From a virus: a stretch of 42,214 nucleotides of DNA. Of this stretch, positions 6,904-30,410 are shown in pieces; position 1 is the first letter of the stretch; each line of letters opens with the position of its first letter. The translations under genes were made by a program, and so were the position numbers. The notes under the pieces were generated by a model, which was not told the DNA's origin, did no database searches, and worked only from the letters and a program-made list of their open reading frames with translations. The DNA is taken from IMG/VR virus record IMGVR_UViG_3300046534_000997, positions 1-42,214 of that record. One strand, given 5' to 3'.

Positions 6904-6936
6904 TGTGCTTCTCTTCTTGGTTAGTGGTGGTGCACT

Positions 6937-6950
6937 CCCCATCAGTGGGG
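6937..6950. repeat. Dispersed palindrome copy, intergenic
   Basis: CCCCATCAGTGGGG, just before the ribosome site of the leftward gene starting at 6903. The flanking ACT/AGT extends the stem to ACTCCCC...GGGGAGT. Confidence 0.85.
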
Positions 6951-6975
6951 AGTGCGGCTGGGCCTAAACGGTACC

Positions 6976-7841: not shown

Positions 7842-7873
7842 ACCAGTAGTCCTTTGGTCAGTGGTGGTGCACT

Positions 7874-7887
7874 CCCCACTGGCGGGG
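7874..7887. repeat. Dispersed palindrome copy, intergenic
   Basis: CCCCACTGGCGGGG, in the spacer between the leftward genes starting at 8792 and 7841. Confidence 0.8.
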
Positions 7888-7901
7888 AGTGCTAGGGTTT
7901 C

Positions 7902-8792
7902 CTACAGGTCGCAGGTGACGGGGATGGTTGCCAGCTTGCGCCCCTTGAGGGTGGCGGTCGCTCGACGTGACTTGGTGTCAACAGCCACCACCTGCATCAT
8001 GCTGTCATACCCCTCAGCGATTACAATGTCGCCCACCTCTACCTGACCTTCGACGGACAGGTAGGAGTATTTGGGGCTGCTGCTGCCGCTGCCGATGAAG
8101 TTAATGTCCACAGTGTAGGGCAGTACCTCCTCAACAGCCGACTTTGGAACAGTGACGATTGATCCGTCTTTCAACTCCATAACAAACAGCCCAGCGCTGT
8201 TGGTTGCGAGCTTGAAGCCGTACTGCACGACGTCTGCGAGGGACCCATCGCTTTGAACTTCGGTGGGGGTAGTGATCTGGAAAAGAACCTTAGTCATGTC
8301 TATCTCGCTTTCAGTTTGGTTGGTAGTTTCGTTGTCCCCATCAGTGGGGAGTGGTACGCGGGGGTCTGGCATCCGCACTAAGCTGTTGAGCGGGAAAGCG
8401 GAGAATGAACCGCTTACCCAGTAGACAACGTGTGCTACCTTACACTGGATGCAGTACCCGTAAACTTGAAAAGTCATCTCACCTCGGGCAGTGCGCCAGA
8501 ACCCCTGTAGGTTTGGTGTAGCTAGCCTTATCTTGTCCCCTTTATAGCACCTATTACAGCGTCGAGACAAATGGTACTTAACCGCGTCTTCGCGTCGGCG
8601 CTGTTCCCCCACGTCCTTACCGCCCCATTTACCGGGGCCTTTAGGAGAAGGCAAGGCGGTATATAGGTTCGCCAGAACTCTAGCCTCAGCCTCCGAGAAG
8701 TCTGCTGCGTCCTCGAACGCATTGTCTAGCGCGGCGTTGTGCGCTATATGCGCTTCCATCGCTGCGTGGAATGACTCGTCGCCCATGCTCAT
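7902..8792 (-). CDS. Zinc-ribbon protein fused in frame to a second unit
   Basis: 296 aa from the ATG that overlaps the previous stop (ATGA). The first part (residues 1 to about 150) has two cysteine pairs, RRCNRCYKG and YCIQCKV, suggesting a zinc ribbon. Then comes a linker P-L-P-T-D-G-D-N-E encoded by the palindrome at 8336-8349. A second part of about 131 aa begins at an internal ATG (8297-8295, MTKVLFQITTP) that has its own plausible ribosome site (GCGAGATAGAC). Elsewhere in this operon palindromes separate two genes, so this looks like two formerly separate genes now joined without a stop. Either one fusion or two products could be made. Function unknown. Confidence 0.7.
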   Translation of the reverse strand: MSMGDESFHAAMEAHIAHNAALDNAFEDAADFSEAEARVLANLYTALPSPKGPGKWGGKDVGEQRRREDAVKYHLSRRCNRCYKGDKIRLATPNLQGFWRTARGEMTFQVYGYCIQCKVAHVVYWVSGSFSAFPLNSLVRMPDPRVPLPTDGDNETTNQTESEIDMTKVLFQITTPTEVQSDGSLADVVQYGFKLATNSAGLFVMELKDGSIVTVPKSAVEEVLPYTVDINFIGSGSSSPKYSYLSVEGQVEVGDIVIAEGYDSMMQVVAVDTKSRRATATLKGRKLATIPVTCDL

Positions 8793-9208
8793 TCTTCCCG
8801 CCCCTCTTTTACGATCTCTTTCCACAGAGGCCACCCGCCAGCAAGGCAGTTGGCTATGGCCTGCACTCCCATAGCTGGGGTAACAGTGGAGTAAAACTTG
8901 ATAGGAGGAAAACAGAGAGCGTAAGCTTGATCCCTGCCTAGGTCGCCTACTGCCATGACTGCATCTATTAGGTCCTCCTCTCGCAACTCTGGGTTAAGTG
9001 CTTGCACCCACCCGCCAATGCAACAGGCTGACTCGCACTCACCCTCGCCTTTCATAAGCTCACTTTGCCGATACTCGAAGCCGTTGCTCATATCGAACCC
9101 GACAGTCTCGTCAAGGTCTTCTACTCGCTGCGGCCCGTTGTTCTGGATATCGGTCAGAACGTCGGCTACATCTTGCAGGCCCTTCATCTTTTTCTCTACA
9201 GTGGTCAT
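8789..9208 (-). CDS. CCIGGW-family protein, copy 1
   Basis: 139 aa beginning MTTVEKKMKGLQDVADVL, with ATGA overlaps on both sides. It aligns with the next gene upstream (9205-9630) along its whole length. Shared blocks are KGLQDVAD-(V/I)-LT-x-IQNNGPQ, GFDM-x-N, ACCIGGW-(V/L)-x-ALNPE, DQA-x-(A/E)-LCFP and TPAMG-x-QAI-x-NCLA. The CIGGW box occurs in a wider set of phage and bacterial proteins of unknown role, typically followed by G-L/T-P-x-Q-A type text. This is a tandem duplication with about half of positions kept. Confidence 0.78.
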   Translation of the reverse strand: MTTVEKKMKGLQDVADVLTDIQNNGPQRVEDLDETVGFDMSNGFEYRQSELMKGEGECESACCIGGWVQALNPELREEDLIDAVMAVGDLGRDQAYALCFPPIKFYSTVTPAMGVQAIANCLAGGWPLWKEIVKEGREE

Positions 9209-9630
9209 TCTCCCCACCCCCCATTCATCACTTCATTCCACATCGGCCACCCGGCAGCAAGGCAGTTGGATATTGCCTGCGCTCCCATCGCTGGGGTAAT
9301 CCTGGCGTAGTCAACAGAAAAAGTGTTCGGAAAACAGAGCTCGTGAGCCTGATCCCTGCTTAGGCTGCTTACTGCCATAACTGCCCTCTCTAGTGTGTAG
9401 TCTGGCATTTCTGGGTTAAGCGCCTTAAGCCACCCGCCGATGCAGCAGGCTGCGCCACACTCTCCCTCGTCTTGTCTAGGTAGACAGGCTCTATCCTCAT
9501 AGTCGTTGCCCATATCGAACCCGATAATCTCGTCAAGTCCTTCTACTTGCTGCGGCCCGTTGTTCTGGATAGCGGTCAGAATATCGGCTACGTCTTGCAG
9601 ACCCTTAAACTTTTTCACTTCGGTATTCAT
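9205..9630 (-). CDS. CCIGGW-family protein, copy 2
   Basis: 141 aa beginning MNTEVKKFKGLQDVAD. The start is set by GAGAGGACCAAGAAA; a longer frame from 9666 would start inside the palindrome (ATGGGGAGTG) and is rejected. Paralogue of the gene at 8789-9208. It has four cysteines near the CCIGGW box (R-A-C, GECGAACC), which could form a metal or disulphide site. Function unknown. Confidence 0.78.
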   Translation of the reverse strand: MNTEVKKFKGLQDVADILTAIQNNGPQQVEGLDEIIGFDMGNDYEDRACLPRQDEGECGAACCIGGWLKALNPEMPDYTLERAVMAVSSLSRDQAHELCFPNTFSVDYARITPAMGAQAISNCLAAGWPMWNEVMNGGWGE

Positions 9631-9660
9631 TTTCTTGGTCCTCTCTATCCGGTGTGCACT

Positions 9661-9674
9661 CCCCACCAGTGGGG
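9661..9674. repeat. Dispersed palindrome copy, intergenic
   Basis: CCCCACCAGTGGGG, a consensus copy between the stop of the DUF2786-like gene and the ribosome site of the CCIGGW gene. Confidence 0.85.
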
Positions 9675-9687
9675 AGTGCGGTGTTCG

Positions 9688-13761: not shown

Positions 13762-14150
13762 GTAGAATAAAACCCTTTAATATCAATGGGTTAGCAGGAC
13801 TCATGACTAAAGTGGAGTTAACTATTGACATGACGAGGAAAATATGTAATGATTACAGTATGTTAGACGGTAAAGTTGCTGCATGACAAGAACCTGCTGC
13901 GGCTTGTATCCAGAACTTGGCAATAATCTAGGAAAGAATATGTAATAGAATCAGTATGTTGTGCGGATACAGGTCAAGGGGCATAGTGTTCCTTGGCATG
14001 TTCACCAAATCGGGGAAATTTCCTTGACAAGACATCCGCTAAGTGTTTGATGTTAAAGGCTTTTCTGTTGTGTGCTGCATGACAAGGAGGGCACCCACCG
14101 AAATAGGGTTAAGTCATTGAAATCATTAGATAATATCAAGTCCTTTGTTT

Positions 14151-15288: not shown

Positions 15289-16731
15289 ATGGACCTGAGC
15301 TTTCTATCTCCTGCCCAGAGAGAAATGGCAAACCCTATCATAGAGCAATGCGCTCTGAGTAGAGTGTGGTTTATCAAAAACGTCCTACAAGTGGACCATC
15401 TTGAACCGTGGCAGCTTGAAGAGCTAACCGCCCTCGACAATGGGACCACAAAACTCAGCATTAGAAGCGGTCACGGGGTCGGAAAGACCTGTTTTTGTTC
15501 GTGGTTGGCCCTTCACTTCTTGTTATTCCGTAATGACGTCAAGGTAATCGTCACCAGCCCCTCACAAAAGCAGATGACAGACGGGCTTATCCCCGAAATC
15601 CAGAAATGGGTATCAAAACTCCCTCAATGGATGTCACGGCAGTTAGAAGTGACCTCTGAGAGGGTTACTCGCAGCCCAAACAATAAAAACAACTTCATAT
15701 CGTTCAGAACGGCCCGAAAAGAGAACCCAGAAGCGTTGGCAGGTGTCCACGCCGAGAGCGTCCTTATTATCGTGGACGAGGCAAGCGGTGTCGAGGAGCT
15801 TATCTACGAAACCGGGCAAGGCGCGCTCTCGACAAAGGGCGCTATAGCGGTGCTAATTGGGAACCCGACGAAGCCCAGCGGCTTTTTCTACAAAACACAT
15901 AACGAATTGAGCGATCTGTGGCGTACTCGTAAGGTGTCCTGCATGGATAGCGGGCGCGTGACGGAAGAGTATATCAAATCGCAGGAGCGGACCTATGGTC
16001 GGGACAGCAGAGAGTTCAAGGTCCGAGTACTCGGGGACTTCCCAGACAGCGGAGCGGACGCAGTTATCCCGAGAAGCTACGTTGAAAGCGCTCAGGGCCG
16101 CGACCTTACTAACGCACGGACAGGAAGGGTGTGGGGCATTGACCCCGGCAGAGGAGGAGACCCTAGCGGGTTTATTTGCCGCACCGACAACACGATTGAA
16201 GAGATCGAAGAGTACCGCCTAGACGATATCATGCGTTTGACGGGCGTTATCAAGAACCGCTGGGATACTACCCCAGATAGCAAGCGTCCGATATTTATCT
16301 ACGTTGACGCAATCGGTCTGGGGGCAGGTGTAGCTGACAGGCTGCTAGAGCTAGAGCTCCCGGTGGTGCACGTAAACGTGTCTGAGATGGCGTCTATGTC
16401 AGACAGATATGTGCGTCTGCGTGACGAGCTCTGGTTCGAGACCCGACACTGGTTTGAAACTAAGCTAGTTACAATCCCCACTAAAGGGGAGAACCCTTTA
16501 TCGGAGAAGCTGGCCCATGAGCTTAGTAGCGTAGCTGCTGAGTATATGAGCAACGGGAAGCTCATGGTTGAGAGCAAAGATAAGATGCGCCGCCGGGGGA
16601 TGAAGTCCCCTAACGTAGCTGACGCTCTGTGCCTCACGTTTGCGGGCGGTGGCGCTATCGTTAATGGTGCTTCTGGCGATAGCTGGGGTAAAGTTGACAT
16701 TAGCAAATATATGGCACCACATGTCGTATAA
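15289..16731 (+). CDS. terL: Terminase large subunit
   Basis: 480 aa from MDLSFLSPAQREMANP; the frame is open further upstream but only to a TTG that is the promoter -35 box. Walker A is SGHGVGKT (60-67) and Walker B is VLIIVDEA (158-165), giving the packaging ATPase. A C-terminal RNase H-like nuclease is shown by D285 (GIDPGRGGD), D340 (FIYVDAIGLG) and D445 (NVADAL). It cuts and pumps concatemeric DNA into proheads through the portal. A palindrome at 16476-16489 codes I-P-T-K-G-E-N just before the SEKLAHEL helix, in place of the usual short linker. Confidence 0.95.
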   Translation: MDLSFLSPAQREMANPIIEQCALSRVWFIKNVLQVDHLEPWQLEELTALDNGTTKLSIRSGHGVGKTCFCSWLALHFLLFRNDVKVIVTSPSQKQMTDGLIPEIQKWVSKLPQWMSRQLEVTSERVTRSPNNKNNFISFRTARKENPEALAGVHAESVLIIVDEASGVEELIYETGQGALSTKGAIAVLIGNPTKPSGFFYKTHNELSDLWRTRKVSCMDSGRVTEEYIKSQERTYGRDSREFKVRVLGDFPDSGADAVIPRSYVESAQGRDLTNARTGRVWGIDPGRGGDPSGFICRTDNTIEEIEEYRLDDIMRLTGVIKNRWDTTPDSKRPIFIYVDAIGLGAGVADRLLELELPVVHVNVSEMASMSDRYVRLRDELWFETRHWFETKLVTIPTKGENPLSEKLAHELSSVAAEYMSNGKLMVESKDKMRRRGMKSPNVADALCLTFAGGGAIVNGASGDSWGKVDISKYMAPHVV

Positions 16732-16739
16732 ACTAGCTG

Positions 16740-16768
16740 TTGACACGCTAGCGGTAGTATGCTACTAT
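16740..16768 (+). promoter_or_regulatory. Sigma70-like promoter before Acb2/Tad1-like gene
   Basis: TTGACA at 16740-16745, 17-nt spacer ending TATGC, TACTAT at 16763-16768. The predicted start lies about 30 nt before the ATG at 16807. It could also feed the following virion and tail fibre genes. Confidence 0.78.
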
Positions 16769-16806
16769 TTCGGCAGGTAAATCCGTCAACGCCGATGGGG
16801 TGTATA

Positions 16807-17013
16807 ATGAGCCAATCCAAACCTGCTGCTATACTACGGTATTTCAGCTATGTCCATTTAGCACCTCTGTTACGTGACGTGTCCGAGAAGTGCTACACTC
16901 TCGCTGACGACATGGACAATACGCTGCCAGAGTGCGCGGAAAAATCGGCAGGACTTCGGAAGCTTCTAGAAGCGAAAGACTGCTTCGTCCGCGCTCAACT
17001 GGAGAACAAGTGA
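16807..17013 (+). CDS. Acb2/Tad1-like hairpin protein (putative cyclic-nucleotide sponge)
   Basis: 68 aa, MSQSKPAAILRYFSYVHLAPLLRDVSEK-type sequence with a second helix ECAEKSAGLRKLLEAKDCFVRAQL. The pattern of an aromatic lead (FSYVHL), one helix, a turn with P-E-C-A-E, then R-K-L-L-E-A-K-D-x-x-V-R-A is that of the small helical-hairpin proteins grouped with Acb2 and Tad1. Those sequester CBASS cyclic dinucleotides or Thoeris gcADPR signals. It has its own sigma70-like promoter right upstream, so it can be made early although it sits among late genes, as expected of an anti-defence gene. The family call is by eye; ligand unknown. Confidence 0.6.
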   Translation: MSQSKPAAILRYFSYVHLAPLLRDVSEKCYTLADDMDNTLPECAEKSAGLRKLLEAKDCFVRAQLENK

Positions 17014-17198
17014 TGCCTTCCTCGTCCGGTACTAAAAACTACATGCCAACTCGGGGGGGTGCTCCTACGGGTATGTTCTCCTCTAAGGGGTCGCAGAAGA
17101 AAGACCCCACTGGTGGGGACTTCAAACCGTCCATGACGGCTAAAGCAATGGACAAACCACGCAAAGGCCCGCACAAGAACATGCGCGGCAAGAAATAG
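17013..17198 (+). CDS. Small basic glycine-rich protein, 61 aa
   Basis: Starts MPSSSGTKNYMPTRGGAP; the ATG overlaps the previous TGA and GGAG lies 9 nt upstream. It is polar and lysine-rich with no hydrophobic core (KGSQKKD, KPRKGPHKNMRGKK), so it is probably disordered or nucleic-acid binding. A palindrome (17105-17118) encodes D-P-T-G-G-D in the middle. Perhaps a minor virion or DNA-condensing protein; unproven. Confidence 0.62.
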   Translation: MPSSSGTKNYMPTRGGAPTGMFSSKGSQKKDPTGGDFKPSMTAKAMDKPRKGPHKNMRGKK

Positions 17199-26132: not shown

Positions 26133-26153
26133 GCGAGGCTAAACCCTAGCTCT

Positions 26154-26167
26154 CCCCACCAGTGGGG
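26154..26167. repeat. Dispersed palindrome copy after the capsid gene
   Basis: CCCCACCAGTGGGG, with CTCT/AGAG flanks extending the stem. It is the only consensus copy in an intergenic space among the head genes. As RNA it could stabilise the abundant capsid message. Confidence 0.85.
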
Positions 26168-26198
26168 AGAGCTTCTTACATGCACTAGGAGTGGCAAG

Positions 26199-30381: not shown

Positions 30382-30410
30382 TTGACAACCCGATAGGGAT
30401 GTGCTACTGT
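30382..30410 (+). promoter_or_regulatory. Sigma70-like promoter of ejection-protein genes
   Basis: TTGACA at 30382-30387, 17-nt spacer ending GATGTGC, TACTGT at 30405-30410. The TGTGCTA block matches the two leftward early promoters. The predicted transcript starts about 90 nt before the next gene. Confidence 0.8.

Follow-up and report, generated by a model that had tools for sequence, protein, structure and literature searches.

What is the small gene directly downstream of the terminase in the virus IMGVR_UViG_3300046534_000997, and is it an inhibitor of host immunity? The stretch that we analyzed (hereafter the window) is 42,214 bases long and makes up the whole of this IMG/VR record (positions 1 to 42,214). 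The gene is an ATG open reading frame (ORF) at 16807..17013 on the plus strand, with its TGA stop codon at 17011-17013, and it encodes a 68-amino acid (aa) protein that had been predicted from the sequence alone to resemble the cyclic nucleotide sponges Acb2 and Tad1. Based on the reading frame, its family, its predicted fold and a profile link to the Pfam family PF24729 (Acb2_Tad1_hairpin), we consider it probable that this is a hairpin protein of a large phage family sharing ancestry with the Acb2/Tad1 hairpin, and that it is best explained as a nucleotide-signal sponge.

The protein matches PHROG 1761 (E 7e-23, covering only positions 77-140 of a profile of 148 positions) and PHROG 5120 (E 4e-21), both of which are listed as function unknown, and all 67 of its aligned relatives (67/67) match both as well. 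We define the family by a profile match together with the EKSAGLRKLLEAKDC signature, which places the protein in it. Using tblastn (E of 0.01 or less), we found the family in 345 phage records, where most members are labeled hypothetical protein, and the hosts of these phages include Vibrio, Erwinia, Acinetobacter, Mycobacterium, Gordonia, Brevibacterium and Rhodobacterales. A pattern search of IMG/VR adds hundreds of viral loci (289 of 300 matched stretches were confirmed as family members), and in bacterial genome contigs there are 195 confirmed stretches, the best 80 of which come from Pseudomonadota, Actinomycetota, Chloroflexota, Bacillota, Cyanobacteriota and others. Sixteen columns are invariant in the 67-member alignment, including E45, A48, G49, R51, K52, E55, K57, D58 and R62. 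In a larger set of 249 members the conservation is partly produced by the search patterns, while in a small, more diverse set obtained mostly by tblastn, E45 and R51 are present in at least 90% of the rows and L50, L53, E55 and A56 in all of them. Family members elsewhere occupy early-region, lysis-cassette and tail-adjacent positions, and we count this accessory distribution, with varied genome positions across phages, in favor of a sponge.

Some members carry additional domains. The hairpin is fused to a C-terminal WDGH domain (PF25311, 1e-40) in L228:1001-1708, to an unknown N-terminal domain of ~130 aa in L005:4623-5198, and it has a P-loop-like N-terminal domain in L246:746-1177 and L258:755-1180, both from genomes of jumbo size. 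In Mycobacterium phage prophi79-1 (L294:1384-1647) the family member has a ParB-like nuclease gene on one side and an annotated nucleotidyltransferase on the other.

The link to Acb2 and Tad1 comes from profile comparisons with short-form PF24729 proteins, which we collected for this purpose and ten of which are certified by scoring over the Pfam cut-off. With a family profile built from 249 members, 11 of 12 short PF24729 proteins outrank all 599 reversed and shuffled decoys, and the sole protein missed (1/12) is encoded by a second hairpin gene in the window itself, at 41711..41920 on the minus strand. When a family profile was run against 2,699 ORFs, which included 59 from the family itself, the top six hits outside the family were all PF24729 proteins. 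Comparison with hhalign gave 89% for the family against the PF24729 short forms and 93% for those short forms against Acb2 of PaP2 and T4, and the motif LPxGxEKSxxxxKLxEA is common to the family and the short forms in a gap-free alignment. Scores against PHROG 1454 were 0.006 for the 68-aa hairpin gene, 1e-6 for the second hairpin gene and 7e-4 for T4 Acb2, and PF24729 itself is weakly matched by 12 of the 67 relatives (best E 0.0086). Matches to 'Occludin' among the relatives were rejected as chance. For assignment to the Acb2/Tad1 hairpin superfamily we required that profiles link the family to certified PF24729 proteins more strongly than to decoys, and this is what we observed. Because the certified proteins beat both the decoys and the ORF background, and themselves link to Acb2 of PaP2 and T4, we conclude from the sequence profiles that PHROG 1761/5120 is a separately evolving sister family within the superfamily, a relationship that is remote but real, and not Acb2 or Tad1 proper.

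The predicted structure agrees with the hairpin fold that had been proposed. An AlphaFold2 model built from 67 sequences (mean pLDDT 93) has helices at residues 8-13, 20-39 and 44-67, a predicted arrangement of one short N-terminal helix followed by two long antiparallel helices. A short N-terminal helix and a two-helix hairpin is the topology of the Acb2 protomer (PMC12043709). Foldseek against BFVD returned the protein's own family first, and among the named matches, ranks 8-31 are mostly Acb2/Tad1 hairpin domain-containing proteins, with weak E-values (0.1 and up) and high probability for the first few.

Several results weigh against this interpretation. The 68-aa protein matched no family in Pfam, NCBIfam or PADLOC, including PF24729, for which there was no match at E of 1 or less (curated cut-off 27 bits); the PF24729 model works, since T4 Acb2 (Vs.4) scores 71 bits on it in our control. 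Searches of the PDB with phmmer and with profiles gave chance hits alone, and a direct hhalign comparison of the family profile with Acb2 of PaP2 and T4 gave no match. Foldseek with the 68-aa model found no significant match and no Acb2 in the PDB, a search that is weak for such short hairpins, as the PF24729 protein of the second gene (a poor model) likewise finds no Acb2. The T4 Acb2 binding residues Thr68 and Phe82 are replaced by Arg51 and Leu65, and the protein could instead have some role in the phage cycle unrelated to anti-defense. The original likeness to Acb2 and Tad1 therefore holds as remote relatedness, on the basis of the decoy-controlled profiles and the hairpin model, and fails as an identification with either protein, since there is no Pfam match and the direct comparison with PaP2 and T4 fails.

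How much of this could be explained without a sponge? We think it very improbable that the likeness is convergent, a common two-helix hairpin arrived at without shared ancestry. Short helical hairpins are indeed common, and the 68-aa protein alone matches no Acb2/Tad1 model and no solved Acb2, but convergence does not account for PF24729 proteins taking the first six non-family places against about 2,640 ORFs and beating composition-matched shuffles and reversals, nor for a shared LPxGxEKSxxxxKLxEA motif that aligns gap-free. If the ancestry is shared, the protein could still have kept the hairpin and lost the sponge function, binding some other small molecule or a host protein through its conserved charged face (E45, R51, K52, E55, K57, D58, R62). 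The charged residues are much more fixed than would be expected of an arms-race protein, the T4 residues Thr68 and Phe82 have been exchanged, and in some members the hairpin is joined to another domain, for example WDGH in L228. Nevertheless, the characterized superfamily relatives that we found in the literature are all sponges (PMC12043709, PMC12657218), and sponges of related families vary in ligand while keeping the same mechanism, so we regard loss of function as unlikely, although clearly less so than convergence.

The location of the gene raises a different alternative, that it encodes an accessory protein for packaging or head assembly, expressed together with the structural genes. The order TerL (terminase large subunit), hairpin, portal, capsid is kept in five relatives (L001, L002, L003, L008 and L297), and the promoter upstream of the gene is at the head of the structural-gene strand. 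The neighbors of family members in other phages are AAA-ATPase/ligase regions, DNA primase/polymerase, lysis genes and ParB-like genes, which makes the association with terminase a local one, and the PF24729 protein Bernal13 gp1 likewise adjoins a terminase small subunit. We therefore consider a packaging or assembly role quite improbable.

If the protein is a sponge, as we prefer, several hairpins would assemble into an oligomer, and pockets between the subunits would capture and retain a nucleotide second messenger used in host defense, so that the signal would be sequestered and the defense effectors would stay inactive. Candidate ligands are the cyclic oligonucleotides of the cyclic oligonucleotide-based antiphage signaling system (CBASS) or an adenosine diphosphate ribose (ADPR) signal made by TIR proteins. 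Both an anti-CBASS and an anti-Thoeris role had been suggested, and as far as we can judge nothing in the sequence favors Thoeris over CBASS.

The second hairpin gene, which the original prediction did not mention, encodes a 69-aa protein that is more typical of Acb2/Tad1, with a PF24729 match at 41741-41887 (37.6 and 38 bits against the cut-off of 27), and it is located on the early-gene side of the genome. Its single-sequence model has two helices and a pLDDT of 73. No relatives of this gene were found in viral contigs, and its protein shares 40% identity with a portion of a protein from Sulfitobacter phage phiCB2047-B. In this phiCB2047-B protein (L204:2632-3198), an RyR domain (PF02026) is combined with a PF24729 hairpin. 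RyR-domain proteins of phages degrade or sequester cyclic ADPR signals (PMC13232231), and in the fusion a single polypeptide may act on ADPR-type signals through two distinct domains. Of 50 viral records carrying the PHROG 1761/5120 family, none (0/50) contains a PF24729 gene that exceeds the cut-off. We do not claim that the two hairpin families exclude each other, as there is no base rate and many of the records are fragments. A more tentative proposal, which we offer as speculation, is that PHROG 1761/5120 constitutes a large, unnamed family of sponges in phages and prophages from many bacterial phyla, with its pocket rebuilt around a near-invariant Arg for a signal other than that of Acb2, and that it is paired in this virus with an Acb2-type sponge so as to cover two signals.

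The near-consensus promoter reported upstream of the 68-aa gene is real and conserved. It is a sigma-70-type promoter, TTGACA-N17-TACTAT with an extended -10 TG, at 16740..16768 on the plus strand. The strict pattern TTGACA-N14-TGNTANNAT with at most one mismatch occurs five times in the window where 0.17 are expected (0/100 shuffles reached five), and exact TTGACA-N17-TANTAT occurs once. A generic sigma-70 scan of 14-20 kb gave no excess of sites over chance (2 vs 4.0 expected). In all five syntenic relatives, a TTGACA-N17-TA element lies no more than 60 nt 3' of the TerL stop codon. A start for the hairpin gene at 16759 is unlikely, as it would fall inside the promoter and overlap the -10 element. 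The further idea that the gene has its own promoter, allowing expression at once after entry, found no support here. The promoter heads the structural-gene strand, and because at least one small ORF separates it from the hairpin gene in three of the five relatives (L002, L008 and L297), so that it first serves another small gene there, it looks like the promoter of a transcription unit or operon starting after TerL and running toward the portal and capsid genes.

The other strict sites, all with an extended -10, are at 2847-2819 and 11280-11252 on the minus strand and at 13825-13853 and 30382-30410 on the plus strand, and the two minus-strand sites sit within a 48-nt repeat. A palindrome over the -10 element, TAGTATGCTACTA, repeats in the window no more than expected by chance. 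There is also a G+C-rich hairpin, roughly CTCCCCACYAGTGGGGAG, in about 20 copies in the window (for example at 6931-6956, 7869-7892, 9655-9680, 26148-26173 and 41509-41532). Several copies are just 5' of an ORF start, a position in which the GGGGA arm could contain a ribosome-binding site or hide it, and similar hairpins come after the TerL-distal promoter in relatives.

The position given for the gene, between terminase and the late structural genes, was correct. It is the first gene 3' of TerL, which we place at 15289..16731 on the plus strand by starting it at the Met that corresponds to the N-terminus of the L003 homologue (the frame is open from 15211) and which is 60-80% identical to TerL of the syntenic relatives. 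The portal, scaffold and major capsid genes are downstream on the same strand. Immediately after the hairpin gene, with its ATG overlapping the stop codon, is a gene for a small basic protein (17013..17198, plus strand) that has no Pfam match and has a relative 3' of the hairpin gene in L001, L003 and L008 by tblastn. At 8789-9217 and 9205-9666 on the minus strand, a tandem duplication has left two similar genes side by side, whose DNA blocks are 78-84% identical at a spacing of ~420 bases. Positions 1-127 and 42088-42214 are an identical 127-base direct repeat at the two ends of the record. This repeat suggests that the genome is complete and has either terminal redundancy or a circular form from which the record was assembled. 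Among the closest bacterial contigs is a 5.6 kb contig of a Rhodobacter metagenome-assembled genome with identical gene order. This contig, which could be wrongly binned, points to a host in the Rhodobacterales. The SMODS nucleotidyltransferase that makes the CBASS signal was found in 4 of 41 genomes from one host family that was sampled, the family to which Gemmobacter belongs.

If these proteins are sponges, a very widespread family is being missed by current models, as the 68-aa protein has no Pfam, NCBIfam or PADLOC name, and a larger set of phages would be expected to escape nucleotide-signaling immunity. The novelty of the family is provisional, as recent sponge surveys may already cover PHROG 1761/5120.

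Compared with known sponges, the protein has in common with Tad1 the helical hairpin named in PF24729, whereas Tad1 has an N-terminal four-stranded beta-sheet (PMC12043709) and the 68-aa model is predicted to be all-helical. It has no direct sequence or profile match to Acb2 of PaP2/PaMx33 (PDB 8H2J, 8IXZ) or T4 Vs.4 (PDB 7UQ2), and no loop insertion. The register with T4 Acb2 is clear in the C-terminal helix, where Thr68 corresponds to Arg51, Lys69 to Lys52, Glu72 to Glu55, Arg79 to Arg62 and Phe82 to Leu65, and is not settled at the N-terminus around Tyr8. In T4 Acb2, T68M reduces binding (PMC12657230). Cyclic dinucleotides are contacted there by stacking of Phe82, and the Y8A mutation disrupts their binding (PMC12657218). 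Judging from this alignment, the near-invariant Arg51 in place of Thr68 suggests a different ligand or binding pose, and if the protein is a sponge, this Thr-to-Arg change makes the choice of ligand directly testable. The closest resemblance is to the short phage forms of PF24729 (Bernal13 gp1, StellaBean gp101 and PDB 9PTQ, 'Acb2 homolog 43'), in which LPxGxEKSxxxxKLxEA is in register with the 68-aa protein, while the Thr of TKLEEA becomes Arg and AMFWANAAIAR becomes AKDCFVRAQL.
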